Source: Shinella granuli (GTDB taxonomy: Bacteria; Pseudomonadota; Alphaproteobacteria; Rhizobiales; Rhizobiaceae). Taken from it: 64,000 nucleotides of DNA. The stretch covers positions 1 to 64,000 of the forward strand of contig NZ_SLVX01000026.1 of assembly GCF_004341885.1 (NCBI RefSeq), written 5' to 3'. Positions 35,275 through 55,439 of this stretch are shown one piece after another (the first letter of the stretch is position 1; each line of letters starts with the position of its first letter). Position numbers and translations under genes: made by a program. Under the pieces are notes generated by a model, which was not told the DNA's origin, ran no database searches, and was given only the letters and a program-made list of their open reading frames with translations.

Positions 35275-35571
35275 TCAGGCGGCGGGATAGGGATGGGCGT
35301 TGAGCAGTCTAGCGAGGCGCGACAACGCCCGCGGCCCGGCATTCACCTGATCACATTCGACGGCGCTGACCCCAGGCACCTCCATCAGAAAGGTGCGGAC
35401 AGGACCGACAAAGGTCATGGCGAGGTTTGGGCAGGCACGGCAAGCGCCGGCCAGCGCAACACTGACCACGCCATCCCCACTCACATCAGTGATAGTGATA
35501 TCGCCCCCATGCCCGAGGATAAGGGGCCGCGCACGGCCGAGAGCCGCGTCAAGGAGAACACGATCGATCAT
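35275..35571 (-). CDS. NifU-like Fe-S/metal scaffold domain protein
   Basis: The 98-residue product is a stand-alone NifU C-terminal-type domain: LILGHGGDITITDVSGDGVV followed by LAGACRACPNLA with the CxxC pair that carries an Fe-S cluster or metal. Its ATG overlaps the amidohydrolase stop by four bases, so the two are translationally coupled. It may mature the amidohydrolase or deliver a cofactor to it; why such a domain sits in a sugar operon is unclear. It is the last gene of the operon. Confidence 0.85.
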   Translation of the reverse strand: MIDRVLLDAALGRARPLILGHGGDITITDVSGDGVVSVALAGACRACPNLAMTFVGPVRTFLMEVPGVSAVECDQVNAGPRALSRLARLLNAHPYPAA

Positions 35572-36723: not shown

Positions 36724-37533
36724 TCAACCAATCTGGAAGAGGTCGACGAAATCCCGATACAGAACCGGGCCACTAGCAAGCACCATCCCGCCCTTGGGAA
36801 GCGCCGTTCCGGGTTGAGGATAGTTTAGAAAACGGCCACCGGCCGCCTTGATGAGAGCGAGACCGGCAACGGCATCCCAAGACCACATATGGCGCTCGAA
36901 ATAGCCATCCACCCGACCGGCAGCCACGTAAGCAAGCATCAAAGCGCCGGCGCCGACCTGCCGGAAGCTGCCGCCGGCCGAGAAGAGCCGTTCCGCATCG
37001 ACGGCAAAAGCGGCTGGTGGAACACGATGATTGTGGCCGAGGCCCAAGCTCGTCTTGTCGATACTGCCGGTGGTGCTGACCGAGACCGGTACGCCGTTGA
37101 CAGTTGGCGATATCCCGTCCGCACCGGCAAAAAGTTCGTCGCGGAGCGGATCGTAGATGACGCCGAGGATCGGCTCTCCCTTTGACCACAGACCGATCGA
37201 AACACACCAGTTATGCGCGCCCTTCAGAAAATTCGAGGTGCCATCGAGAGGATCGACGCACCAGATGAGGTCTGCTTCCTGCGCCCCGGAAATACCGGTT
37301 TCCTCGCCCAAAAATCCGTCCTCCGGAAAGGCCGGACGAAGAATGGCGGCGATCGCGTCTTCCGCTTCGCGATCGGCGATGGAGACGAAGTCGTTCAGCC
37401 CCTTCTGCTCAATGACCAGTTGGCTGCGGCGGTCATAATGGGACAGCAACAAGCGCCCGGCTTCACGGGCGGCATGTTCGGCGGCAGCGAGGCGGGCTTC
37501 CAGCCCTGCAGCGGAAGAAGGCGTATCGGGCAT
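36724..37533 (-). CDS. inositol-monophosphatase-family phosphatase
   Basis: The 269-residue product has the complete lithium-sensitive phosphatase motifs: EETG around residue 75, WCVDPLDGTSNFLKG (about 90-104), and WDAVAGLALIKAAGG near the C-terminus, giving the metal-binding Glu and Asp residues. Family members dephosphorylate inositol phosphates, histidinol phosphate or sugar phosphates. The position in a polyol/ketose operon, next to the RpiR regulator gene, points to a sugar-phosphate substrate. Confidence 0.92.
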   Translation of the reverse strand: MPDTPSSAAGLEARLAAAEHAAREAGRLLLSHYDRRSQLVIEQKGLNDFVSIADREAEDAIAAILRPAFPEDGFLGEETGISGAQEADLIWCVDPLDGTSNFLKGAHNWCVSIGLWSKGEPILGVIYDPLRDELFAGADGISPTVNGVPVSVSTTGSIDKTSLGLGHNHRVPPAAFAVDAERLFSAGGSFRQVGAGALMLAYVAAGRVDGYFERHMWSWDAVAGLALIKAAGGRFLNYPQPGTALPKGGMVLASGPVLYRDFVDLFQIG

Positions 37534-37544
37534 TCGTGGATCCT

Positions 37545-38447
37545 TTAATAGCGGGTCAGCGCGGTCACGTCGGAGGTCCGCTCCAGGCCTTCGATGGCCC
37601 GACCGAAATTTCGCACCGCATAGAGGGAATAGAGCGTGTCGATGACCTGAAGCTGCGCAATCTTCGAGACCATGGATTCGTGATATTCGCCTGGGCCGAC
37701 GACGCCGGTGATGGTCGGCGTGAAGAGGCAGATATCCGCGTGCCGCACAATTGGCGAATCCGGGAAGGATGTGATCGCCAAGGTCGTTGCACCCTGCAAC
37801 TTCGCCTGCTGCAGGCTGTCCACGGTCGAAATGGTACGGCCGGAATTCGAGACGCCGATCGCCAGCGATTTCGGTCCCAGCGTCGAGGTGGAAATCTGAC
37901 GGATACCCAGGTCACGGAAGAACAGGCAACGCTTGCCGACCCGCATGAAACGCAGCAGCGCATTTTCCACACAGAGCAACGAGGCACCCATGGCGAAGAA
38001 GCCGAGCACATCAGCCTCCTCGATCGCCTCCACAGCGCGCTCCAGCTCCTTCTCCGCAAGGCCCGCGCGGGTGTCGGAAACGGTCATCGCATAGCGGGCG
38101 GCGACCTTGGACAAAACCGAGGACGTGTCGTCCTGGTCGGTTATGTCCTCATAGACGTGGCGTTCGGAAAGCGGCTCGGCCGGCGCCGTACCCTGGGACA
38201 ACTCCTCGGCGATGAGGATTTTAAACTGCTGGAAACTCGGCACATCGATTTCACGCACGAATCGGGTGACGGTGGATTCCGATACTTCACACTGTAAAGC
38301 GAGATCCTTGATCGAGATGGATTTGATCTCTTCCGGTGCCTTTAGCACTCGATCCGCAATACGCCGCAAGGCAGGGTTCATATAACCCGCCTTCCAGCGA
38401 ATCCGCATCAGGATGGATTGTCTGCTGTCCGTTGCGTTATCCATCAA
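37545..38447 (-). CDS. RpiR/MurR-family transcriptional regulator
   Basis: The 300-residue product has an N-terminal RpiR helix-turn-helix (LALQCEVSESTVTRFVREI, about residues 48-66) and a C-terminal SIS (sugar isomerase) domain that binds a phosphosugar, about residues 120-260, including VSNSGRTISTVDSL. It lies inside the operon. A motif AGAATGAAATT occurs upstream of this gene (38496-38506) and again at the operon head (50173-50183), and could be part of its operator. Confidence 0.93.
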   Translation of the reverse strand: MMDNATDSRQSILMRIRWKAGYMNPALRRIADRVLKAPEEIKSISIKDLALQCEVSESTVTRFVREIDVPSFQQFKILIAEELSQGTAPAEPLSERHVYEDITDQDDTSSVLSKVAARYAMTVSDTRAGLAEKELERAVEAIEEADVLGFFAMGASLLCVENALLRFMRVGKRCLFFRDLGIRQISTSTLGPKSLAIGVSNSGRTISTVDSLQQAKLQGATTLAITSFPDSPIVRHADICLFTPTITGVVGPGEYHESMVSKIAQLQVIDTLYSLYAVRNFGRAIEGLERTSDVTALTRY

Positions 38448-38512: not shown

Positions 38513-39391
38513 TTACCAAACTTTGCGGCTGGCCCTCGCAGTCTCCCGCGTAACGCGCAGAACGTCATAGGCGGAACGCGCGGCAACGAGCGAATCCTGC
38601 CAGGCCTCGCGCCATAGCCGCACCCCCCCGACAAGCGCCTCGCCCAGTACACGGGAAGAGAAGGCTTCGACTGTGTAGTCTCCGGCGTATCCGACGCTTT
38701 CGAGCGCCCGGAAATAGGACGAAATATCGAAGTGACCGCCGCCGAGCGCTCCACGGTTACTGTCCGCGACATGGGCGTAGCCTAGCAGCGCGGCATTGCG
38801 CTGGATGGTCGCCGCGATATCGCCCTCCTCGATGTTCATGTGGAAGGTGTCCATGTGAATGAAGAGGTTGGCGCCACCCGAAGCGCGGATCAGCGACGCA
38901 GCCTCATCAAGCGTATTGACGAGATAGCTCTCGTAACGATTGACAGGTTCCAGTCCGAGCCGCACACCGAGTTCGCCAGCGCGGCGGTCTAGACGTGAGA
39001 GGCTTTCCGTGACCCGCGCCCGCGCGTCCTTGGTCGCCGGCGCACCATAATTGGAAAAAGCCGCGTAGGTGATACCTGAAACGGCAGGTGCGTGAAGTTC
39101 CGACGCTATCTCGAGGGCACGTGCAACTGTTGCTTCACCTCGTCGGGCGACTGACGCATCGGAAGAGGAGATATCCGTGTCGGACCCCAGCGCCATACCG
39201 AGACGCAGTTCCAGTCCCGCCTCGCGCGTTACCCGGCGAGTGAGCGGAATATCAAGCGCCGCCGGATCGAACATCAGAACTTCGATCAACTCGTAGCCGA
39301 TTTCCGCCGCCGCTTGGCACGCCGTGCTTGCGTTGGCCGCGTCCCACCGGTCCGTGAAGAGGAGGGCATGAACACCTAACTTGCCGGACAT
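38513..39391 (-). CDS. sugar epimerase, ketose 3-epimerase-like (copy 2)
   Basis: The 292-residue product is a TIM-barrel sugar isomerase/epimerase of the AP-endonuclease-2 superfamily. It has the four metal/catalytic positions of the D-tagatose/D-allulose 3-epimerase group: Glu in LGLEPVNRYES, Asp-His in HMDTFHMNIEE, His in YAHVADSNRG, and Glu in VEAFSS. It is a tandem partner of the following gene (about 60 bases between them). The physiological ketose is unknown. Confidence 0.87.
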   Translation of the reverse strand: MSGKLGVHALLFTDRWDAANASTACQAAAEIGYELIEVLMFDPAALDIPLTRRVTREAGLELRLGMALGSDTDISSSDASVARRGEATVARALEIASELHAPAVSGITYAAFSNYGAPATKDARARVTESLSRLDRRAGELGVRLGLEPVNRYESYLVNTLDEAASLIRASGGANLFIHMDTFHMNIEEGDIAATIQRNAALLGYAHVADSNRGALGGGHFDISSYFRALESVGYAGDYTVEAFSSRVLGEALVGGVRLWREAWQDSLVAARSAYDVLRVTRETARASRKVW

Positions 39392-39451: not shown

Positions 39452-40363
39452 CTAAACAAATGGGCTGTTGACTTCTCGACGAGGCAACGGATGCCGGGCG
39501 ATCAAACTCGTGGTCGCCGCATCAATCTGGCCGCGCATGAAGCGCAGCCCCTTGGTCGCCAAATCCTCGCTGTCCGTCCAGTGTGTGGTCCAGGCGGCAA
39601 GGGCGTCCGCCACCCCTTCCTTGAGGACGGCCGGCGAGAAGGCCTCGAACACGACCGGCCCGTTATATGAAGCACGTACCAAGGCACGGAAATAGTCTGG
39701 GAAATCCACCGACCCAGACCCGAGATAGCCTCGATTACTCTCCCCGGCATGGACGTGGCCAATGGTGTCGATGTTCCGCGCGATCGCATCCGCGGTGTCG
39801 TGTTCCTCGATGTTCATATGGTAGCTGTCGATATGGGCGAACAAAGCCGGCGACCCGATGGTCCGCACGATACGGGCCGCATCGTCGATGGTGTTGACGA
39901 CATTGCTCTCATAGCGATTGACCGCCTCGATGCCGAGCCGAATGCCAGCAGCCTCAGCGCGTACGGCAAGACGGCCATAGGTTTCGATGACACGGTCGAT
40001 GGTACCCGCTGCGGCTGCCTGTCCATAACGGTGCATGGCCGAATGCGTGACGCCGCCGAGCAGATTCGAGCCCATGTCGCGCGTCGCAAGGATGGCGTCC
40101 GAGATAAACTGCTCGCCTGCCTTCGCCACGGCGGGATCGGCGCTGGAGATGTCTGCGGCCGGATTAAGCGCCATGCCAGTCACCACGCCGATTCCGGCCG
40201 CCGCGATCGCCTTTGCGGTCGCGGCAGGGCGTGCGTCCCGTGGGTCGAAGATGACCGCCTCAATCAGGTCGTAGCCGGTCTCTGCCGTCTTGCCAATGGC
40301 ATAGCAAATCGTGTCCTCGGTCCAATCGGTGACCCAGACTAACGCGTGGATACCAAGCTGCAT
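39452..40363 (-). CDS. sugar epimerase, ketose 3-epimerase-like (copy 1)
   Basis: The ATG at 40363 follows GAGGAG and gives 303 residues (MQLGIHALVWV at the N-terminus). The same catalytic set as in copy 2 is present: Glu in LGIEAVNRYESN, Asp-His in IDSYHMNIEE, His in HVHAGESNRG and Glu in VFEAFS. The longer frame to 40423 overlaps the SDR gene and is not favoured. Together the two copies may form a heterodimer or act on two different ketoses. Confidence 0.87.
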   Translation of the reverse strand: MQLGIHALVWVTDWTEDTICYAIGKTAETGYDLIEAVIFDPRDARPAATAKAIAAAGIGVVTGMALNPAADISSADPAVAKAGEQFISDAILATRDMGSNLLGGVTHSAMHRYGQAAAAGTIDRVIETYGRLAVRAEAAGIRLGIEAVNRYESNVVNTIDDAARIVRTIGSPALFAHIDSYHMNIEEHDTADAIARNIDTIGHVHAGESNRGYLGSGSVDFPDYFRALVRASYNGPVVFEAFSPAVLKEGVADALAAWTTHWTDSEDLATKGLRFMRGQIDAATTSLIARHPLPRREVNSPFV

Positions 40364-40373
40364 TTCACGCTCC

Positions 40374-41159
40374 TCACCCGAAGATCGAGCGAATTGTGCC
40401 GCCGTCGGCACGATGGCAGACACCGTTCATGGCTGCGTTGGTCATCAACTGCACCACGCCGCGCCCGTGCAGGGCTGGATCAATGAGCTTCTGCGTCAGG
40501 TTCGAGGGCTGGACGTCGCGGTAGAAATCGACGAGCGCCTGCTCGACTGTCTTGCCCTGTTGCTTGGCGAGATCGGCAAAGTAGGTTTCGACCGACTCTG
40601 TCGCGGTCGAGCCTGGCATATAGCTATTGACGCGCACATTCGTCCCGCGCGTCAGTTCTGCCAGCGAGCGGCTGAGCCCAAGCATCGCGGTCTTGGTGAC
40701 GGAATAGGGCGTCATGTTGCCAATCGAACGGATGGCCGCTTCAGAGGAAATGAAGACGATGCTGCCATCGTTACGCGCCAGCATGTCCTTCATGACAAGG
40801 CGGGAGATGCGGATCGACGTCATGAGGTTGTGCTGGAAATATTCCATCCAGCGCTCGTCGCTGACCTCGAAGAAATCATTAACGTCGAACACGCCGATAT
40901 TGTTGACGAGGAACGAGACTGGGCCAAAGCCGGCGGCGAAGTCCGCAAGTGCAAGCGCGCCCTCCTGCGTCAGGAGATCGGCGACTACGCCATGGGCACG
41001 TGTACCGATAGCCGCGACAGCCTTGCTGAGCTTGGCCTGATCGCGGCCGTTAATGATGACTATCGCGCCCTCTTCGTGAAAGGTACGTGCTATTGCGTGA
41101 CCGATGCCCGTCGCGCCGCCGGTGACGATAACAATCTTGTCCTTAAGTCCGAAATCCAT
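40374..41159 (-). CDS. SDR-family oxidoreductase (paralogue C)
   Basis: The start MDFGLKDK at 41159, with GGGAG nine bases upstream, matches paralogues A and B; a GTG three codons upstream is the alternative. The 261-residue product has TGGATGIGHAIA, NNIGVFD, SSEAAI and YSVTKTAMLG (Tyr-Lys). INGRDQ after the second strand suggests NADP(H). It lies between the epimerase and lactonase-phosphatase genes, so it probably oxidises or reduces a ketose or polyol. The 17-base overlap with the upstream gene indicates coupling. Confidence 0.9.
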   Translation of the reverse strand: MDFGLKDKIVIVTGGATGIGHAIARTFHEEGAIVIINGRDQAKLSKAVAAIGTRAHGVVADLLTQEGALALADFAAGFGPVSFLVNNIGVFDVNDFFEVSDERWMEYFQHNLMTSIRISRLVMKDMLARNDGSIVFISSEAAIRSIGNMTPYSVTKTAMLGLSRSLAELTRGTNVRVNSYMPGSTATESVETYFADLAKQQGKTVEQALVDFYRDVQPSNLTQKLIDPALHGRGVVQLMTNAAMNGVCHRADGGTIRSIFG

Positions 41160-42486
41160 GTTCCTCACTCCCTTGTCCGATGTTCTGCTGTGCTGCCCGT
41201 GCGAAGTGCGCCAGCCGCTCGCAGGCTACGCTGATTTGGTCGAAGACCGCCTCGAACGCGTCCCGCTCTTGCCCCCACGGATCGATGATCGTTGTTTCCT
41301 CGCCCGGAATGGCATAGGCGCCGAGCCGGCCGATTCGGGCGTGGCCGCCCTCCGGACGGAGTGCCCGGATGGCCTCCATGTTGAGATCGTCCATGCCAAG
41401 GATCAAGTCGAATTCTTCGAAGTCAGTCTTCCGGATTTGTCGCGCAACGAGCGTCTCCAACGCAACGCCGCGGGCGGCTGCGACAGAAATGGTTTCGGAG
41501 TGGGGCGGTTTTCCGACATTCCAGTCCATGATCGCGGCGCTGTCGATCCGGTGACCAGGTAGAGCGGCGCGCAGAACGCCGTCAGCGGTGGGCGAGCGGC
41601 AGATGTTGCCACGGCAGACGAGGAGTACAGATAGTGGGGGCCGGATGAGAGGTTGGACGCGGTAGGTGGTCGAGACCGTTGCGAGCCGCACCTCGACCTT
41701 CGGCGTCAGTGTAGCGAGCTTTCGCGCACCCTCCTCGGGATTGAGCGTGTTGAACTCGAAGAGACCGAAATGATGGCCGATCATTGCCCGCGCGCCGATC
41801 TCGTCCGCAAGTGCGACGGCCTCCTCCAGCGACAAGTTGCCAGGTACGCCATTGGCGGCGCGCGTTGCATCCCGCCCGTTCACCGGCAGCAGCGCGAGAT
41901 CGACCCGGAAAGGCATCAGCCATTCCGCCAGACCGGGAAATGGGATGGTGTCACCCGAATGCCAGAGCGTCACCCCGCCGCCGCTAAGCACATACCCCAG
42001 GAAGAGGTAACCCTCCGTCGTGCGGCGAAGGTCCTCGTGCGCTGCTGGCGTCGCCGTAACGATAACACCGCCGAGATCGATGCTCTCACCCGCGTCGATC
42101 AACGTTAGGCGATTTTCTGGTACGCCACGCTCAATGGCCCGCGCTTTCTCTGCACGGGGCACGAGCGCCCGTGCCCGCGGATTTGCGGCGAGCAGGGCCG
42201 GGATCGTTCCCGGATCCATGTGATCGGTGTGCGCATGAGTGCAAAGCAGCCAGTCAACGTCGCGCAGGTCGCCCGGTTTGACGGGCACGGGCATCATCCG
42301 CTGATGCGGAAACCGGGTTCCCCGGTATTTTTCCGCAAGAGAATCGGAGAGATAGGCGTCGATGACGATCTTGAGACCGGCCTGCCGGATGAGGAATCCC
42401 GCCTGACCGAGCCAGACGAGTGTAGCGCCTTCTCCAGCATCAAAGGCTTCCATGGCCACTAGGGGTTCAATCTCGACGACGCTCAC
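41143..42486 (-). CDS. fusion: UlaG-like metallo-beta-lactamase lactonase + low-molecular-weight protein tyrosine phosphatase
   Basis: Two domains are fused in 447 residues. Residues 1-275 are a metallo-beta-lactamase-fold protein with THAHTDHMD (83-91), SGDT at 177-180 and GHHFGLF at 237-243, the pattern of UlaG, the L-ascorbate-6-phosphate lactonase. Residues 285-435 are a complete LMW-PTP: P-loop CRGNICRS (Cys291, Arg297) and the acid Asp402 in IIDPWGQ. The start is GTG at 42486 overlapping the upstream stop; ATG at 42453 is the alternative. A lactonase and a phosphatase on one chain would fit hydrolysis of a phospho-sugar lactone with dephosphorylation, or a regulator fused to an enzyme. 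I have not seen this fusion described. Confidence 0.88.
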   Translation of the reverse strand: MSVVEIEPLVAMEAFDAGEGATLVWLGQAGFLIRQAGLKIVIDAYLSDSLAEKYRGTRFPHQRMMPVPVKPGDLRDVDWLLCTHAHTDHMDPGTIPALLAANPRARALVPRAEKARAIERGVPENRLTLIDAGESIDLGGVIVTATPAAHEDLRRTTEGYLFLGYVLSGGGVTLWHSGDTIPFPGLAEWLMPFRVDLALLPVNGRDATRAANGVPGNLSLEEAVALADEIGARAMIGHHFGLFEFNTLNPEEGARKLATLTPKVEVRLATVSTTYRVQPLIRPPLSVLLVCRGNICRSPTADGVLRAALPGHRIDSAAIMDWNVGKPPHSETISVAAARGVALETLVARQIRKTDFEEFDLILGMDDLNMEAIRALRPEGGHARIGRLGAYAIPGEETTIIDPWGQERDAFEAVFDQISVACERLAHFARAAQQNIGQGSEEHGFRT

Positions 42487-43406
42487 GGCCGCACCAAGTT
42501 CTTCAAGAGGTTGTCGACAGCTACACTCGTTGCCCTATCGACACTTTCCTCGGTGAACCCGCCGGCATGCGGCGTCAGGATCACGCGTTCGTGGCTGAGC
42601 AGCGCCGAACTTTCAGGAGGCTCGTGATGGAAGACGTCGGTTGCCAGCGTCGTTACCTGTCCCATCTCCAACGCCGCCAGCATCGCGCCATCGTCGATCA
42701 GTTCCGCACGCGCGGTGTTGACGATGATCACGCCTTTCTTCATGCGTGAAAGCATGGCGTCGTCGAGGATAGGCTTTTCGCCTGGCGGGCAGTGAAAGGA
42801 CACGGCGTCGGCGGCCATCAGCGCATTCTCAAGTCCCGCAAAACGGAACCCGGTGGGCGCGAAGCTACAATCCGGATACGGATCGTAACCGATCACCTTC
42901 ATGCCCAGCCCGAGCGCCATGTTCACGACCTCCCGGCCGATTGCGCCACATCCGACAACAGCGAGCGTCCGCCCCTTCACTTCCTGGCCGATCCGCCTGC
43001 ACCATTCGCCCTTGGCGAGATGCTGATGGGACCATGGAATGTGTCGATACGCGGAAAGGAGGAGGCCGACGGCGAGTTCGGCGACGCCGCGGGCATTCGC
43101 GCCCATGGCGCGCTCAACGGTAATGCCGCGCGCCTCCGCCTCGCGGAGGTCGATATTGTCGACCCCCGTCCCGTTGCGGCTGATGACCCGCAATCCCTTG
43201 GCCGCATCGAGCACCCGCGTGCTGATCGGTTCGACACCGGCAAGCCAGCCGACGCAGCCGGGTATAGTACGCAACAGCTCCTCCTCCGACGGCGTCTTGC
43301 CGGGCGCGGGAAAAACGATCTCGAACCCCTCGTCCAGCAGGCGCGTGAGAACCGGATGGCCGGAGCCGGAGAGAGAACGGGGCGTGATGGCGATCCGACC
43401 GGGCAT
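42483..43406 (-). CDS. D-isomer-specific 2-hydroxyacid dehydrogenase
   Basis: The 307-residue product belongs to the PGDH/GhrB-like family: catalytic domain at both ends, NAD domain in the middle with VVGCGAIGREVV, catalytic Arg in NTARAELID, Glu in VFHHEPPE and His in LTPHAGG. It could reduce or oxidise a 2-keto acid such as glyoxylate, hydroxypyruvate or a 2-keto-3-deoxy sugar acid derived in this pathway. It overlaps the fusion gene by four bases (GTGA) and follows the cupin isomerase gene by 12 bases. Confidence 0.9.
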   Translation of the reverse strand: MPGRIAITPRSLSGSGHPVLTRLLDEGFEIVFPAPGKTPSEEELLRTIPGCVGWLAGVEPISTRVLDAAKGLRVISRNGTGVDNIDLREAEARGITVERAMGANARGVAELAVGLLLSAYRHIPWSHQHLAKGEWCRRIGQEVKGRTLAVVGCGAIGREVVNMALGLGMKVIGYDPYPDCSFAPTGFRFAGLENALMAADAVSFHCPPGEKPILDDAMLSRMKKGVIIVNTARAELIDDGAMLAALEMGQVTTLATDVFHHEPPESSALLSHERVILTPHAGGFTEESVDRATSVAVDNLLKNLVRP

Positions 43407-43418
43407 CGTTCTATCCGC

Positions 43419-43994
43419 TCAACCGTTCCAGCGGGGATTGTCGATGACGGTCGGCTTGCCGTCGCGCTCGACCATCAGTTTGCGGAAGCCTTTGCTTTCG
43501 ATTGTACCGTAGTCGTGGCCGGCATTGCCAGGAAAGGCGAAGAAGGTGACCAGCGGCTCGGTTGGATGAACGTTGATCGAGCGATGCGCCCAGCGCCCTG
43601 GCACATATACCGCCTTGCCGGGAAGGAACTCCAGCCACTTGGTTTCGCCTTCCGGCGTTTCCATCATCATGTAGCCATGGCCGCGCAGGCAGTAGTACAC
43701 TTCCGCCGTGTCGATGACGGTATGAAAGTGACCCTTGGTCATGTGATATTCGTCACCGACCTTGCCGGGATAGGTGATCGATGTGCCATAGGCGACGTCC
43801 TTTTCGCTGTCCGGTACACCCATGTCGTAGAATTCATAGAGCAGCGAATCGCCGTTCGCCAATTGCGCCTCGAAGGCAGCTTCATCGTGAAACATACCTT
43901 TCATCTTGGACAATGTGCGGCGGATGGGCTCGCGCGTTGAGCTCAGGCCGTTGTTGAGATTAAATTCGTGAAGGCTGGGAAATACGGTTGTCAT
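43419..43994 (-). CDS. cupin-type phosphoglucose isomerase
   Basis: The 191-residue product is a single cupin with metal-binding HMTKGHFH, then EVYYCLRGHGYMMME and PGRWAHRS, the pattern of archaeal-type cPGI, which interconverts glucose-6-phosphate and fructose-6-phosphate. In this operon it may act on another aldose/ketose phosphate. It has no relation to the usual bacterial PGI. It follows the shikimate-dehydrogenase-like gene by 12 bases. Confidence 0.9.
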   Translation of the reverse strand: MTTVFPSLHEFNLNNGLSSTREPIRRTLSKMKGMFHDEAAFEAQLANGDSLLYEFYDMGVPDSEKDVAYGTSITYPGKVGDEYHMTKGHFHTVIDTAEVYYCLRGHGYMMMETPEGETKWLEFLPGKAVYVPGRWAHRSINVHPTEPLVTFFAFPGNAGHDYGTIESKGFRKLMVERDGKPTVIDNPRWNG

Positions 43995-44964: not shown

Positions 44965-46464
44965 TCATTCGTGCTCGGCCCAGTCCCGCGACCGGTCAAC
45001 AGTGCGGCACCAGCCGTGATAAAGATGGTCGGCGGATGCGCGATCCGTCGAAGGCTGAAATTCCCGGTCGAGCGCGAAGGCGGTATGCAGTTCGGCCATA
45101 TCCTTCCAATAACCGACCGCAAGACCCGCCAGGAACGCTGCACCACGTGCCGTGGTGTCGATGACCTTGGGCCGCAGCACCCGCACTCCGAGCTGATCGG
45201 CCTGGAACTGCAGCACGAAATTATTCATCGCCGCCCCGCCATCGACCTTGAGTTCGGCGAGCGCGATCCCGGAATCAGCCTCCATCCGGTGGATCACGTC
45301 GCGGATCTGGTAGGCCATCGATTCCAGCGAGGCGCGGATCAGGTGATTTCGGTTCGCGCCGCGCGTGATGCCGACGATTGTGCCGCGCGCGTACTGGTCC
45401 CAGAAAGGTGCTGACAGTCCATTGAAGGCCGGCACGATGTACACACCGTTCGTATCGGGCACCTCGAGTGCGGCAGCTTCCGTTTCCGATGCGCTATGAA
45501 TAATTTTCAGCTCGTCGCGCAGCCATTGGACCACTGAACCGACGGAAAACAGCGTCCCTTCCAGCGCGTACTCAAGCTTCCCGCCGAGTCGCCAGGCGAC
45601 CGTTGTAAGCAGACCGTTTTCCGATGTGCGGATCCGAGCGCCCGTGTTCATCAGGAGTGTGCCGCCGGTCCCATAGGTCGCCTTGACCATGCCCTCGGTA
45701 AAGCAGGACTGGCCGAAAAGCGCGCCCTGCTGATCGCCGATCGACGCTGCGACCGGGATCTCCGCACCAAAGAGATCGGGATCGGCGAACCCATAAACCT
45801 CGGAACTGTCGCGCACATCGGGTAGGATGGAACGCGGCACGTTCAGCTCGGCCAGAAGACGCTCGTCCCAATCGCCGGTATGGATGTTGAACAGAAGTGT
45901 CCGCGAGGCGTTCGAAGCATCTGTCACGTGCGCCTGACCGCCTGTCAGGTTCCAGATCAGCCACGTATCGATCGTGCCTGCTGCTAGTTCACCGCGTTCT
46001 GCTCGCTGGGGCGCACCGGGTGTGTTTTCAAGGATCCAGGCAAGCTTGGTGCCCGAGAAGTAGGCATCAATGACAAGGCCAGTCGTCTCCTTGACATAGG
46101 GTTCAAGTCCCCTCGCCTTCATCTGATCACAGATGCCGGCGGTGCGGCGGTCCTGCCAGACGAGCGCATTGTGAAGCGGGATGCCCGTCTTGCGGTCCCA
46201 GATCAGGCATGTCTCGCGCTGGTTGGTGATGCCGATTGCTGCGACTTGGGCCGCGTCGATGCCGGCGTTGTGGATCACTTCCCGTGCGACAGAGAGTTGG
46301 GTTGACCAGATCTCGTTGGCATCGTGCTCGACCCAGCCCGGGCGTGGATAGATTTGCCGGAACTCTCGCTGCGCGAGCGAGACGATGTTGCCAGCCCTGT
46401 CGAACAGGATCGCCCGCGCGCTGGACGTTCCTTCGTCCAGCGCCATGACATAGCGCTCCATCAT
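44965..46464 (-). CDS. glpK: FGGY carbohydrate kinase, glycerol-kinase-like
   Basis: The 499-residue product has glycerol kinase features: [13 protein letters not shown] at the N-terminus, [32 protein letters not shown] and the C-terminal [23 protein letters not shown] lies eight bases upstream of the ATG. Family fit to GlpK is good, but the neighbours (ketose epimerases, dehydrogenases, aldolase) leave open a related polyol. The operon runs on to the AroE-like gene ten bases away. Confidence 0.85.
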
Positions 46465-46487: not shown

Positions 46488-47537
46488 TCAGTCGTTCGGC
46501 TTGAACAGAATCTTGTGATACCGGCCGAAATTTCGCTCTTTTAGCGCCTTGAAGATGGATGGCGCCTCCTCCAGGGCCACCCTGTGCGTGATGAGCGGAT
46601 CTACCTTCAGGCGCCCGTCAGCAAGCAAGCTGATGATGTCAAACCACTCCTTTCCAGGAAATGGCAGCGAATAGGAATTCCACGATCCTATGACCTCGAG
46701 TTCCTCGCGCACAATCCGCGCAAACGCCTTCTCCGCGAAGGTCACGTCGCCATAGGCTGTTCCGTAGAGCATGATCGCGCCCTGCTTGGCGGTGACCATG
46801 ATGGATAGGTTGCGGCCCGGCTCAGAGCCCGCGCATTCCAGTGACACTGCAACGCCGCGCCCCCCTGTCGCCTCATGTACCCGTGCGAGCACATCGTCGC
46901 GCGACGGGTTGAGGCAGAGATCCGCGCCGACCTCGCGTGCCAGCGACAGCTTATCGTCATCCACGTCGATGGCGATCAACGGCCGTGCGCCCGAAAGTTT
47001 GGCGAATTGCAGGGCGAAGTAACCGAGCGCTCCGCAGCCGACCACCGCAACAGCGTCGCCAAGCTTGACGTCGAGCTTGTGGATACCATGCAGGATGATC
47101 GCCGCAGGCTCGATGGTCGCCGCAACCTCGTACGGTACGCTGTCGGGCACCTTCAGCACGTTAGTGAAGGGTGCGCATATGTATTGCGCGAAGGCGCCAT
47201 CGCTGCGCGAACCCATAAAGCCATAGTCATCACAGAGGTGGAACTTTCCCGCCTCGCACCACTGGCATTTGCGGCAAGGCATAAGCGGCGCGACGGCCAC
47301 TCGGTCACCGATCTTCAGATGGCCGACGGACGCACCGACCTTTTCCACCCGCCCAGCGAATTCATGGCCGGGAATGGTTGGAAAGTTATAGGTACCCGTC
47401 ATCATGACGCGGCCAATATCAGAACCGCAAATGCCGGCAGCCTTCACTTCAACCAGAACGTCACTGGGTCCGATCTCGGGGATAGGCACGTCCTCTACCC
47501 GCAGATCGCCGGGTGCATGTAATACTGCCGCTTTCAT
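46488..47537 (-). CDS. zinc-dependent alcohol/polyol dehydrogenase
   Basis: The 349-residue product belongs to the medium-chain dehydrogenase family (sorbitol/threonine-type): catalytic-Zn residues in CGSDIG and GHEFAG, a four-Cys structural zinc loop ([15 protein letters not shown]), and the Rossmann motif [13 protein letters not shown]. The ATG at 47537 follows GGAGGAG and overlaps the stop of the next dehydrogenase gene by four bases. It is likely to oxidise a sugar alcohol. Confidence 0.9.
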
Positions 47538-48592
47538 TGCAGCCTCTCCTCCTGCGGACAAATAATGGTTTTCATGCCCCTGCCGGACAAAGCGTGGTCG
47601 AAGGCGGCAACTGCCTCGCACATGCCAAAACGATGGGTCACAACTTCAGTCACGCGGACCTGGCCGGTCTCAACGAGCCGGAGCGCCCGCGCATAATCCT
47701 CGATGCTGGAGCCGGTCGAACCCAGGAGCTTCAGGCCCCAGTAGTGGACCTTGTTCGTATCGAGTTCGACGAGCGTTCCCTTGTTAAGACCGGAAAAGAA
47801 ATTGATCCGGCCGAGCCGCGCGAGACAAGACAGTGCCTGAACCTGCAGTTCAGCCGCGGGAGCACAGGTCAGCGCGACATCGACGCCGTGGCCGCCCGTC
47901 AGGCGCATCACTTCATCGACGACGTCGACCTTGCTCGAATCCACGGTATGCGTAGCCCCCAGCGGGGCAATCTCCTCCAGTCGTTCGGCGCGACGGCCGA
48001 CGACGATCACCTGCCGGGCGCCATAGGCACGGGCAAGCTGGAGGAACATGCCGGCTATCGGCCCCGTTCCCAGGATCAGCACCCGATCCTCCGGCGTCAC
48101 CGAAAGGTCCTTCCAGGCGTTGAAGCAGCACGACAACGGCTCGACGAGCGAGGCTTCTTCATAGCTCATCGTCTCGGGAATCTCGAAAAGGTTGCCGCCC
48201 GAGATGGCTCCGGCCGTGACGATCATATGCTGCTGGAAGCCACCATCTATGTCGATACCGAAGGCTTTGTAATCGGGGCACATATTGTTGAGCCCCTTGC
48301 GGCACATGTCGCAGTGCCCGCAGCCGATGTTCGGAACCACCGAAACCCGCTGTCCCAGCCGCCAGTGCGAAACGTGCTGGCCGATCTTGATGATCTCGCC
48401 TGCGAGCTCGTGACCGAGCACACGCGTGTCGTTTACACCGACGCGAAAATGGCCGCCGCGAAGGACCTTGGTGTCCGTGCCACAGATCGAGGCAGCAAAG
48501 ACGCGAACCAGCACCTCATCGTCCCGGGGTTCCGGTTGAGGTCTCTCATCGAGAGCGATCCGGCCTTGACCCTTATATACGGCGGCCTTCAT
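47534..48592 (-). CDS. zinc-dependent alcohol/polyol dehydrogenase
   Basis: The ATG at 48592 gives 352 residues; the frame is open upstream to 48706 but that would overlap the SDR gene. It has CGTDTKVLRG, GHELAG, four-Cys structural zinc (CGHCDMCRKGLNNMC) and LILGTGPIAGMFLQL. It is a second MDR of the sorbitol/xylitol-dehydrogenase type in the same operon, coupled to the preceding one, so the pathway has at least two alcohol-oxidation steps or a single heterotetramer. Confidence 0.9.
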   Translation of the reverse strand: MKAAVYKGQGRIALDERPQPEPRDDEVLVRVFAASICGTDTKVLRGGHFRVGVNDTRVLGHELAGEIIKIGQHVSHWRLGQRVSVVPNIGCGHCDMCRKGLNNMCPDYKAFGIDIDGGFQQHMIVTAGAISGGNLFEIPETMSYEEASLVEPLSCCFNAWKDLSVTPEDRVLILGTGPIAGMFLQLARAYGARQVIVVGRRAERLEEIAPLGATHTVDSSKVDVVDEVMRLTGGHGVDVALTCAPAAELQVQALSCLARLGRINFFSGLNKGTLVELDTNKVHYWGLKLLGSTGSSIEDYARALRLVETGQVRVTEVVTHRFGMCEAVAAFDHALSGRGMKTIICPQEERLQ

Positions 48593-48596
48593 TGGC

Positions 48597-49430
48597 TTAG
48601 ACCTCCATGCCGTAGCGGTGAGCCTTATGGGTCGGGTAGAGGGAGATTGTCGGAATGGTAACGTCGGGCGTGCGGGTGGCAACGTAGAGGGCCAGCCACG
48701 CGACATTGTCGACGTCTATGCAGGAGGCATGGATGCCTTCCTTAATTTCCTTCTCGTCCAGCCAGCCATCGACATAGGCTTCCAGGTCGCCGTCATAGAG
48801 ACCCTTGTCGATGATCTCCGTCATCGGAGTCTTGACGTGGCTCGGATTGAGGACGGTGACGCCGATCTTCTTGTCTTTGCCTTCCAGAAGAATGTTTTTG
48901 GAGAAACCCAGCATACCATGCTTCGAGGCGCGGTAAGGGCTGTGACCTGGGCCTGAGGCGACACGCGTGGACGACGAGCCCATGTTGATGATGCGGCCGC
49001 CCTCGGCCTGCTTTTCCATGTAGATGAATGCTTCACGGCAGCAGAGGAAAACCGCTGTGAGGTTCGGGCCGATCGTCTTGTTCCACTCTTCCAACGTGAC
49101 GCGAGTAACCGGCGGAGCGAGGCTGTCTCGACCGGCGGAATTGACCACCACGTCAACGGATCCGAACGTATCGTTCACCTGCTTAAAGAATGAGCGGACC
49201 GTCTCCTCTTCACAAACGTCCGCAAAGATCGGAAGGACAGTTCCGCCTTCGGCCTTAATCTCGCCGGCCACCCGCTCCAGGCGCTCACGATCGAAATCGA
49301 CCATAGCGACCTTGGCGCCGTTTTGGGCATAGATTCGGGCGACAGCTTCGCCGATTCCGGATGCCGCGCCCGTGATAATGCAGGATTTGCCTCTGAGAGA
49401 CAGACCCTCGGATAGGGTATTGCTGGCCAT
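48597..49430 (-). CDS. SDR-family dehydrogenase
   Basis: GGAGG six bases upstream sets the ATG at 49430 (277 residues). It has TGAASGIGEAVA, VNSAGRDS, and Tyr-Lys in SPYRASKHGML. Asp in MVDFDRE after the second strand suggests NAD(H). It differs from paralogues A-C. Classic sugar-alcohol or keto-acid dehydrogenase function is inferred from its place after the KDPG aldolase gene. Confidence 0.9.
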   Translation of the reverse strand: MASNTLSEGLSLRGKSCIITGAASGIGEAVARIYAQNGAKVAMVDFDRERLERVAGEIKAEGGTVLPIFADVCEEETVRSFFKQVNDTFGSVDVVVNSAGRDSLAPPVTRVTLEEWNKTIGPNLTAVFLCCREAFIYMEKQAEGGRIINMGSSSTRVASGPGHSPYRASKHGMLGFSKNILLEGKDKKIGVTVLNPSHVKTPMTEIIDKGLYDGDLEAYVDGWLDEKEIKEGIHASCIDVDNVAWLALYVATRTPDVTIPTISLYPTHKAHRYGMEV

Positions 49431-49488
49431 TCTAAACCTCCGTGTTCGCTCCTCTCGGAGCTTGTTTTCGTTGTCGTTGAATACGGCT

Positions 49489-50130
49489 TCACCCCTTACG
49501 GGCGAGTGCGACGGCATCCTCCGTCAGACGAGAAATCTCTTCGAAATTCCCGTCGCGAATGAGTTTGGCATCCACCATCCATGAACCGCCGCAAGCCAGG
49601 ACGGCAGGCACTGTGAGGTAGAATGCGAGATTGGCTGGACTGATGCCGCCCGTTGGCACGAAGCGCATGCCTGGATAGGGACCTGTGAGCGCCTTGATGA
49701 ACGGTATGCCGCCAGTCGGCTCGGCCGGAAAAAACTTCACCGTTTCCAGCCCATAGACCATCGCCTGCTCGACACCGGTCGGATTGTTCACACCCGGGAT
49801 GATCGGCAATCCTGCGCTCTGCGCGGCTTCGACGATCGCCGGATTGAACCCCGGGGTAACGATGAATTGGGCGCCAGCAGCCCCGGCATCGGCAAGCTGC
49901 TCTTGAGTGAGGACCGTCCCGGCACCAACAAGCATGTCCGGTACATCCTTGCGCATACGGGCAATTGCTTCGGCGGCAGCAGGCGTCCGGAAAGTAACCT
50001 CGGCCACGGTAAGGCCGCCCTTCAGCAACGCCTTGGCCAATGGCACTGCATCATCGGCCCGCTCCAGCACTACGACCGGCAGGAGGCGAGCGGCGGCAAT
50101 CCGTGCCTGAATATCTGTTGCAGCAACCAC
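49489..50130 (-). CDS. KDPG/KDPGal-type aldolase
   Basis: The 213-residue product is a class I aldolase of the Eda family, which splits 2-keto-3-deoxy-6-phospho-sugar acids into pyruvate and glyceraldehyde-3-phosphate. The Glu in AEVTFRT, TPGFNPAI and the Schiff-base Lys in ETVKFFPAE are all present. It is the first gene of the long operon. No sugar-acid dehydratase or keto-deoxy-sugar kinase was seen in the window. Confidence 0.93.
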   Translation of the reverse strand: MVAATDIQARIAAARLLPVVVLERADDAVPLAKALLKGGLTVAEVTFRTPAAAEAIARMRKDVPDMLVGAGTVLTQEQLADAGAAGAQFIVTPGFNPAIVEAAQSAGLPIIPGVNNPTGVEQAMVYGLETVKFFPAEPTGGIPFIKALTGPYPGMRFVPTGGISPANLAFYLTVPAVLACGGSWMVDAKLIRDGNFEEISRLTEDAVALARKG

Positions 50131-50143
50131 CTCACGGCCCCTC

Positions 50144-50200
50144 GATCAAATTTGTTTCGGTGTAATTTTGATAGAATGAAATTCGTTATTGCGCAACAGC
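50144..50200. promoter_or_regulatory. divergent promoter region with candidate operators
   Basis: The 184-base gap between the aldolase and HAD genes is AT-rich. ATCAAA (50145-50150) and TTTGAT (50167-50172) form an inverted repeat, and next to it AGAATGAAATT (50173-50183) repeats a string found upstream of the RpiR gene (38496-38506). These are candidate RpiR or other regulator sites for the long catabolic operon. No experimental basis. Confidence 0.35.
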
Positions 50201-50314
50201 AAAAAAAATGATTTTTATTTTTTACGACAGGTGGACTTCTGTATTGCGGACGATCTGCGTCCCAAGACGAGTTTTCCTCCAGAAGCGAGCGGATCAGATA
50301 GAAGCGGTGGAGAT

Positions 50315-50950
50315 ATGATAAAGGCTGTCTTGTGGGACATGGATGGCACGCTGGTTGACAGCGAGGACATTGCCGTCGATGCGCTCGGCCTAGCAATGAC
50401 GGAGGCCGGGTTGACCCCGCCGACGGATCTGAAAGAGCGCGTCGTCGGCCGCTCGTCCGATGATATCTATCGTTACGTCGTCGAGACATTCGGCCTGAAA
50501 GCCAGCCCAACCGACTGGGAGCGGCGCAAGCACCATTTCTACTTCCGCGCCGCCGGAGCGTTGCGGGGATACGATGATGCCATTGAGACGTGGAGGAGAT
50601 TCGACGCCGTGGGCATACGTCAGGCGGTGATTTCCAATAGCGATCGCGCCATCATGGATATTAATCTGCGCGCTGCCGGCCTTGTTCGTCCCGGTCTGAT
50701 AACCGTGGCACGCAATGATGTCCTGCACGGCAAACCGCATCCTGAAGGCTATTTGCGCGCCGTCTATCTCCTGGGGGTCAATCCCAGCGAATGCATCATT
50801 GTGGAAGACAGCGTAAGCGGAGCCGCAGCCGCCGAGGCGGCGGGGATCGAGACTGTCTTCGTTCCCCACAGCCACAGCGAGGCGCCCCAAGGCGTTAGAG
50901 CACTTTGCTCCATGCGGCTGTTTGGAGACGAAATACTCGCGCGTCGATAA
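50315..50950 (+). CDS. HAD-family phosphatase (beta-phosphoglucomutase/GS-like)
   Basis: The ATG at 50315 is preceded by GGTGGAG and gives 211 residues; the longer frame to 50189 is not needed. Motifs: DMDGTLVDSE (residues 8-17), ISNSDR, KPHPEGYL and VEDSVSGAAAA, matching the subfamily that dephosphorylates sugar phosphates or glycolate. It diverges from the long operon and may be coregulated; it would remove phosphate from an intermediate. Confidence 0.92.
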   Translation: MIKAVLWDMDGTLVDSEDIAVDALGLAMTEAGLTPPTDLKERVVGRSSDDIYRYVVETFGLKASPTDWERRKHHFYFRAAGALRGYDDAIETWRRFDAVGIRQAVISNSDRAIMDINLRAAGLVRPGLITVARNDVLHGKPHPEGYLRAVYLLGVNPSECIIVEDSVSGAAAAEAAGIETVFVPHSHSEAPQGVRALCSMRLFGDEILARR

Positions 50951-54632: not shown

Positions 54633-55439
54633 ATGGATCGACGCATTACCGGCACGACGCACGTCGTCGTGCATCTCGCCTACCCATCCCATCACCTGCG
54701 CACGCCGACCTATTTCAACGCTTACTGCGCCGAGCACGGCCACGACGCCGTGCTCGTGCCTTGGCAGGTCGCGCCGGAAAATCTTGCGGCCGCCTTCGAG
54801 GGGCTGCGCCGGATCGACAGCCTTGCCGGCGTCATCGTCACCATTCCGCACAAGACGAGCGTCGCCGGCCTGTGCGACAGCCTTTCGGACACGGCCGGCT
54901 TCCTCGGCGTCGCCAATGTCGCGCGCCGCACCCCAGATGGCCGCTTCCACGGCGAGATGTTCGACGGCGCGGGTTTCGTGCAGGGTCTCGTCCGGGAGGG
55001 CCGGAGTATTAACGGCCGGAACGCCCTGCTGCTGGGCGCCGGCGGTGCGGCCACGGGCATCGCCGAGGCGCTGGTGCGGGGCGGCGTTGCCCGTCTCGCC
55101 ATCGCCAACCGTTCCATGGACAAGGCCGAAGAGCTCGCCGTGCGGCTGCGTAGCGCCTTTGCCGGCCGCGATATCGTCGCGGCTCCCGCCGATGCACGCG
55201 GTTTCGACCTCGTCGTCAACGGCACCTCGCTCGGCATGAAGGCCGGCGATCCGCTGCCGGTCGATCCTGAAACGCTGGAACCGGGCGCTCTGGTGGCCGA
55301 GGTCGTGATGGAACCCGACGTCACGCCTTTGCTGCGGCTGGCGTCGAAACGGGGATGCGGAACGCATAGGGGCGTGCATATGATCACCGGACAGATCGAG
55401 TTGCTGGCAAGGTTTCTGCTGGACGAACCGGGCGCCTGA
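54633..55439 (+). CDS. shikimate dehydrogenase-like protein, divergent
   Basis: The ATG at 54633 follows GAGGAGG. The 268-residue product has the AroE layout with TIPHK (Lys, near residue 71), FDGAGFV for the Asp position and LLGAGGAATGIAEAL for the nucleotide site. The substrate-carboxylate motif that normally reads HSxSPxxHN is PSHHLRTPTYFN, so shikimate is unlikely. It is in a polyol-type catabolic locus, divergent from the GldA-like operon and probably sharing its operator. Confidence 0.82.
   Translation: MDRRITGTTHVVVHLAYPSHHLRTPTYFNAYCAEHGHDAVLVPWQVAPENLAAAFEGLRRIDSLAGVIVTIPHKTSVAGLCDSLSDTAGFLGVANVARRTPDGRFHGEMFDGAGFVQGLVREGRSINGRNALLLGAGGAATGIAEALVRGGVARLAIANRSMDKAEELAVRLRSAFAGRDIVAAPADARGFDLVVNGTSLGMKAGDPLPVDPETLEPGALVAEVVMEPDVTPLLRLASKRGCGTHRGVHMITGQIELLARFLLDEPGA

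Follow-up and report, generated by a model that had tools for sequence, protein, structure and literature searches.

A conserved fusion of a metallo-β-lactamase-fold, lactonase-like enzyme to a complete low-molecular-weight phosphatase in a sugar operon of Shinella granuli

The best fold match of the metallo-β-lactamase-fold (MBL) half of the protein described here is 2wyl, listed as a metallo-b-lactamase, which we take to be E. coli UlaG, the L-ascorbate-6-phosphate lactonase. The sequence is 18–19% identical to 2wyl and to the V. cholerae MBL protein 3bv6, from which the fusion differs in its added phosphatase domain, 27% identical to TM_1162-type UPF0173 hydrolases (3x2z), and 20% identical to human NAPE-PLD (4qn9). 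The UlaG equivalog model NF008688 (NCBIfam) reached 37.7 bits where its cut-off asks for 306, and the metal-dependent hydrolase model NF001911, presumably UPF0173, scored 48.2 bits against a cut-off of 144, both falling short. An earlier note, made from the letters of this DNA, had called this half a UlaG-like lactonase; the likeness holds for the fold, with 2wyl closest, and the UlaG name is not supported.

The second half belongs with the low-molecular-weight protein tyrosine phosphatases (LMW-PTPs). The domain is common to Wzb and other bacterial LMW-PTPs, with the Wzb model (NCBIfam) at 78 bits, below its cut-off of 243. Classical LMW-PTPs (1xww/1phr human/bovine, Acp1 2p4u, and Primo-1 7cuy) stand alone, whereas the PTP half here is joined to an enzyme, is basic at the position of L13, and is mostly Gly at that of Y132. 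The chain 4egs, which matches LMW-PTP, is named ribose 5-phosphate isomerase RpiB, and is presumably an LMW-PTP fused to RpiB, has an isomerase as its partner and not an MBL hydrolase; a literature search found no paper on this LMW-PTP/RpiB link. The structure of the engineered human L13R/I16K enzyme, 6y2v, made for activity on phosphoinositides (PMC7316235), was among the fold matches of our fusion model; the fused family shares the L13R-type change while its I16 position stays Ile. In the study of Egbe, Levy, and Tabernero (PMC7316235), L13R raised the PI(3)P activity of human LMW-PTP from 0.53 to 4.43 nmol/min/mg, about 8-fold, and PI(5)P activity from none to 4.44 nmol/min/mg, with activity on pNPP kept (1215 vs 1303), beside which the phosphoinositide activities are small. 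The same authors (PMC7316235) ascribe phosphoinositide binding to the added basic residues, cite K125 and K128 of PTEN for specificity, and call Y132 part of a wall incompatible with a phosphoinositide ligand; in the engineered enzyme, W49 needed no change and Y131A was almost dead.

The window is the whole stretch of 64,000 nucleotides of Shinella granuli analyzed here. The fusion gene (Table 1) is one open frame on the minus strand, for which the earlier note had named no strand, and the plus strand is interrupted by stops when read in the register of 41143–42486. The motif residues THAHTDHMD occupy positions 83–91 of the protein, CRGNICRS positions 291–298, and IIDPWG positions 400–405. Pfam Lactamase_B_2 matched residues 40–240 (E 4e-25, 89 bits, above the cut-off of 27), and LMWPc (PF01451) matched residues 287–425 (E 1.4e-34, 119.8 bits, gathering cut-off 23.2), spanning model positions 1–143 of 144. 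An AlphaFold2 model built with 54 relatives gave two confident domains (pLDDT 91.8, pTM 0.92). With both Pfam domains over cut-off and the catalytic residues kept, the 447-residue frame holds an MBL fold and a complete LMW-PTP, as had been noticed from the letters, and the fusion of a metal-dependent lactonase-like enzyme to a complete small phosphatase is confirmed as real.

Table 1. Coordinates of the fusion gene, its domains, and the neighboring genes in the window
Feature	Position	Strand	Remarks
Inositol-monophosphatase-family phosphatase	36724..37533	minus	
RpiR/SIS regulator	37545..38447	minus	
Second epimerase-like TIM barrel	38513..39391	minus	below model cut-off
Ketose 3-epimerase-like TIM barrel	39452..40423	minus	below model cut-off
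SDR dehydrogenase	40374..41168	minus	start overlaps fusion end
Fusion gene, MBL fold + LMW-PTP	41143..42486	minus	447 aa, GTG start, single open frame
LMW-PTP domain, residues 285-430	41197..41634	minus	
General-acid Asp D402, DPW loop	41281..41283	minus	kept in 86/88
P-loop CRGNICRS, residues 291-298	41593..41616	minus	
Linker, residues 265-284	41635..41694	minus	weakly conserved (88-protein alignment)
MBL domain, residues 20-260	41707..42429	minus	ligands H84 H86 D88 H89 H150 D179 H238
D-2-hydroxyacid dehydrogenase, phosphoglycerate-dehydrogenase-like	42483..43406	minus	4-base overlap with fusion
Cupin-type phosphoglucose isomerase	43419..43994	minus	match 1j3p, E 1e-54
Shikimate/quinate-dehydrogenase-superfamily oxidoreductase, ~316 aa	44007..44957	minus	folds like SDH, 5-ketofructose reductase
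FGGY kinase	44965..46464	minus	above GlpK model cut-offs
Zinc alcohol dehydrogenase	46488..47621	minus	
Second alcohol-dehydrogenase-like gene	47534..48706	minus	longest frame; name from Shinella annotation of matching gene
SDR dehydrogenase	48597..49517	minus	
KDPG/KHG aldolase	49489..50130	minus	match 4e38, E 2e-69
HAD-family phosphatase	50189..50950	plus	

The fusion start overlaps the upstream gene by 4 bases, and its end shares 26 bases with the downstream SDR gene, taken at its longest frame; because of these overlaps with both flanking genes, the fusion appears to belong to a compact operon. The placement of the gene in a sugar operon, proposed earlier, was borne out by its neighbors. 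Farther along the window, another gene with Shikimate_dh_N and Shikimate_DH domains (54633–55439, plus strand) is divergent from an Fe-ADH/glycerol-dehydrogenase-like gene, and a NifU-like domain protein of 98 aa (35275–35571, minus strand) adjoins an amidohydrolase gene in the operon region.

The same 447-aa fusion, at 94% protein identity and with matching neighbors, was identified on the Shinella zoogloeoides plasmid NZ_CP132313, which by coordinates is one record with G007 (same genus as the window) and is counted once. Among the best 120 of 2625 protein matches, 87 relatives were of fused length (at least 380 aa), with identity down to 50%; these and the window protein make up the 88-protein alignment, which covers both halves. 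A frameshift or misassembly joining two adjacent genes, against which the earlier note had warned, is ruled out by the S. zoogloeoides copy, the 87 more fused-length proteins (88 in all), and 8 fused cases among 77 genome loci. Its other caution, that the fusion might be widespread and already characterized, was partly justified: the fusion turns up repeatedly in Alphaproteobacteria, some JGI names read UlaG/protein-tyrosine-phosphatase, and no paper describing an MBL + LMW-PTP fusion was found among the open-access papers listed. Database names already pair both parts, so the architecture is not unseen; the parts are known and the architecture is new.

All 7 MBL ligands (H84, H86, D88, H89, H150, D179, and H238, an HxHxDH motif with downstream His, Asp, and His) were each kept in 88/88 fused proteins. 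In the PTP half, C291 was kept in 87/88, R297 in 86/88, and D402 in 86/88, and the complete C-R-D triad was present in 85 of the 88; the window protein has C291, R297, S298, and D402. Pairwise dN/dS against the window was 0.07–0.21 for the MBL half in 9/9 relatives and 0.07–0.25 for the PTP half in 8/9, the ninth (L019) being undefined with synonymous sites saturated; dS exceeded 1 in 7/9 MBL comparisons, which makes the dN/dS values rough. These ratios indicate that both halves are under purifying selection. That the PTP half merely rides along and does little is very unlikely, with the triad kept in 85/88 and dN/dS well below 1, although it would account for three defective copies and for the faster divergence of the PTP half than of the MBL half in L017–L019 (dN 0.28–0.49 vs 0.15–0.18). 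The defective copies, P0063, P0073, and P0085, are of fused length with a broken PTP active site; one is degenerate (P0063, with N at P-loop position C+1), one shortened, and one scrambled.

The residue next to the catalytic Cys sets the fused family apart from its stand-alone relatives. Residue 292 (P-loop C+1), which aligns with human LMW-PTP L13 via the mouse Acp1 alignment, is R in 45 and K in 39 fused proteins and hence basic in 84/88; the exceptions are N in P0029 and P0063 and L in P0071 and P0072, the latter two keeping CLGNICRS. In PTEN, K125 directly follows the catalytic Cys. The early-branching fused proteins of the MBL tree (P0075, P0076, P0077, P0081, and P0087) have R at this position. 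In contrast, among 117 stand-alone LMW-PTPs (P0125–P0241) the residue is L in 59, M in 38, T in 17, and S, A, and R in 1 each, so that only 1/117 is basic; this set comes from the best 120 of 542 matches to the PTP half, leaves out three fusion pieces (P0122–P0124), and holds the nearest relatives and not a random sample. Nine further stand-alone classical LMW-PTPs, six from same-order genomes and three from the genomes of L013, L014, and L015, all have L. One stand-alone protein, P0125 (194 aa, 51% identical), has the loop CRGNICRS and may represent either an ancestor from before the fusion or one partner of a split.

Elsewhere in the pocket, the position of human Y132 is Gly in 67/88 fused proteins vs 0/117 stand-alone ones, in a loop that is hard to align, and the position of human I16 (I295, C+4) is Ile in 87/88. 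The position of human R53 is R/K in 79/88 fused vs 18/117 stand-alone proteins, which is not telling alone because the human pTyr-specific LMW-PTP carries R53 itself (PMC7316235). The aromatic wall is retained as in pTyr enzymes, with W322 (human W49) in 86/88 and W/Y404 (human Y131) in 84/88. The basic C+1 residue suggests that the PTP half may take a sugar phosphate rather than a protein substrate, and, on its own, the proposal that this half acts on a small anionic phosphate in place of pTyr is in our judgment somewhat likely.

The retained W322 and W/Y404 would also suit a genuine protein tyrosine phosphatase controlling some enzyme or regulator of the operon, to which the fusion would deliver it. 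Among LMW-PTPs of known structure, those that match best in sequence bear the name phosphotyrosine phosphatase, and the fold-match rows are listed at 28–39% identity. Such a role is nonetheless rather improbable given the basic C+1 residue in 84/88, the Gly at the Y132 equivalent in 67/88 vs 0/117 stand-alone proteins, and the Pfam scan of 20 genes of the window, which showed no protein kinase domain. Two related activities fit the loop poorly. The arginine phosphatase YwlE has Thr at C+1 and C+4 (CTGNTCRS), and a YwlE-type enzyme was rejected on the window loop CRGNICRS, with C+1 R/K in 84/88 and C+4 Ile in 87/88. LMW arsenate reductase ArsC has an extra resolving Cys pair, and at 16 loci in the genus and order a CTGNSARS loop was read in other LMWPc genes. 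Some database names for the fused proteins start 'arsenate reductase/protein-tyrosine-phosph...', but an arsenate reductase of LMW-PTP type is disfavored to the point of being scarcely credible: the loop is C[RK]GNICRS and not CTGNSARS, and in a 20-sequence alignment the only conserved Cys of the domain are C291, which never varies, and C296, which rarely does, leaving no extra resolving pair.

The MBL gene keeps constant company. Scored by tblastn thresholds, its partners in 77 loci (one genome per species) were cupin-type phosphoglucose isomerase (cupin-PGI) in 72, the shikimate/quinate-dehydrogenase-like (SDH-like) gene in 74, 2-hydroxyacid dehydrogenase in 66, KDPG aldolase in 54, and RpiR in 60; the three loci without the SDH-like gene are contigs under 10 kb. 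In full-length unfused loci, cupin-PGI and the SDH-like gene accompany the MBL gene in 55/55. The SDH superfamily takes in 5-ketofructose reductase, a sugar enzyme. The module of PGI, SDH-like, and MBL genes occurs repeatedly, in Alphaproteobacteria and Actinomycetes as well as in a Pirellulaceae MAG and Lokiarchaeota MAGs, and no title on such a pathway was found among the open-access papers listed. Nine loci (L020, L040, L045, L050, L057, L068, L071, L076, and L081) have these three genes with neither 2-hydroxyacid dehydrogenase nor KDPG aldolase above threshold, possibly a minimal three-gene core. In the Lokiarchaeota MAGs L062 and L067, an MBL protein of 36–40% identity occurs with cupin-PGI, SDH-like, and 2-hydroxyacid dehydrogenase genes, either through ancient interdomain transfer or through an error in binning.

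The fusion itself is confined to few of these loci, 8 of the 77 being fused and 69 unfused. The fused loci belong to Rhizobiales (five, L012–L016), a Rhodobacterales MAG (L017), and Gemmobacter (L018 and L019), and all fused members bearing names are alphaproteobacterial. Whole-genome searches found the fused form in 3/101 relatives, 1/385 genomes of the class (the own genome), 3/394 of the family (own genome included), and 1/394 of the Gemmobacter family; because G010, G676, G726, and G830 coincide by coordinates with the genomes of L016, L012, L013, and L019, the only new genomes from these searches are the own genome and G007. In the 69 unfused loci, over the stretches covered, not all of which are full length, a search at E 1e-6 found no separate PTP gene near the MBL gene, and none was found in six short unfused loci (L006–L011). 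Among the 33 loci L122–L154, some of which coincide in position and 27 of which extend just ~1.5 kb beyond the gene, a PTP match at E 1e-3 occurred only in the fused L125 and L126; the scan for a neighboring PTP left out L160–L163. For the unfused loci examined, a split-gene ancestor with PTP beside MBL was rejected, there being no separate PTP match. Since 69/77 loci are without a PTP gene in the stretch examined, the PTP appears from these gene contents to be an add-on to the MBL module. Two genomes have both a fused and an unfused MBL copy, with PTP on one only: G010 (L005 and L011) and G676 (L126 and L148), the latter by coordinates the MAG of L012 and L040.

In the MBL tree (FastTree, 188 rows), the fused proteins group with unfused ones nested among them, namely P0089–P0121 except the fusion fragment P0092; in these MBL-only proteins either loss of the PTP or a split of the gene may have occurred. 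The fused and unfused labels need 12 changes, 5 of them forced by well-supported branches, and for this reason gains and losses of the fusion are not separable and a single origin is not established.

The absence of PTP from 69/77 loci would also suit a phosphatase of metabolite repair, one that removes some harmful phosphorylated by-product and is no pathway step. The PTP is found with one operon type and other phosphatases are present, but the by-product is as yet hypothetical, and we regard this role as unlikely. That the PTP substitutes for another phosphatase was rejected for the window, where HAD and inositol-monophosphatase-family genes are present.

We tentatively favor a reading in which the fusion is a bifunctional enzyme, hydrolyzing an aldonolactone phosphate and dephosphorylating a small anionic sugar phosphate of the same pathway. 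Cupin-PGI would interconvert a ketose-phosphate and an aldose-phosphate, the SDH-superfamily enzyme would oxidize the sugar, giving an aldonolactone phosphate for the MBL half to hydrolyze, and the resulting phospho-aldonate may be processed further by 2-hydroxyacid dehydrogenase and KDPG aldolase. The LMW-PTP half would be an active cysteine phosphatase retuned for a small anionic phosphate by the basic residue beside the catalytic Cys, its substrate most likely being the phospho-aldonate or its lactone, in a normal step or in side-product clearance. We infer the reaction order, the substrates, and the coupling of the two sites. Taken alone and judged by context, the MBL half probably opens an aldonolactone phosphate; the joint reading, in which each of the two proposals lends weight to the other, is held more cautiously than either half by itself. 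The suggestion in the earlier note of lactone opening combined with phosphate removal fits the partners (PGI and SDH-like in 55/55) and the basic P-loop residue, with the substrates being our proposal. Its alternative, in which the phosphatase domain acts on a sugar-kinase partner, drew no support from the analysis. Counting against our bifunctional reading are the kept W322 and W/Y404, the 69/77 loci without PTP, the HAD and inositol monophosphatase genes already in the window, and the non-basic C+1 residue of P0029, P0071, and P0072.

More broadly, LMW-PTPs are treated as protein phosphatases, and the fused lineage joins the domain to a metabolic hydrolase. It is conceivable, if doubtful, that here an LMW-PTP left protein signaling and became a sugar-acid phosphatase by acquiring a basic P-loop residue like that of PTEN. 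Its fusion partner would then be the lactonase of a so far undescribed module for sugar-phosphate oxidation, in which cupin-PGI, the SDH-superfamily dehydrogenase, and the MBL lactonase, as unrelated enzymes, would carry out chemistry of the Zwf-Pgl type across several bacterial phyla and Lokiarchaeota. The L13R-type substitution, natural in 84/88 fused proteins, is of the type introduced by protein engineering to extend LMW-PTP activity to phospho-cyclitols (PMC7316235). The fused lineage would make substrate switching in the LMW-PTP fold directly testable, and the module of PGI, SDH-like, and MBL genes makes an obvious target in the search for pathways.
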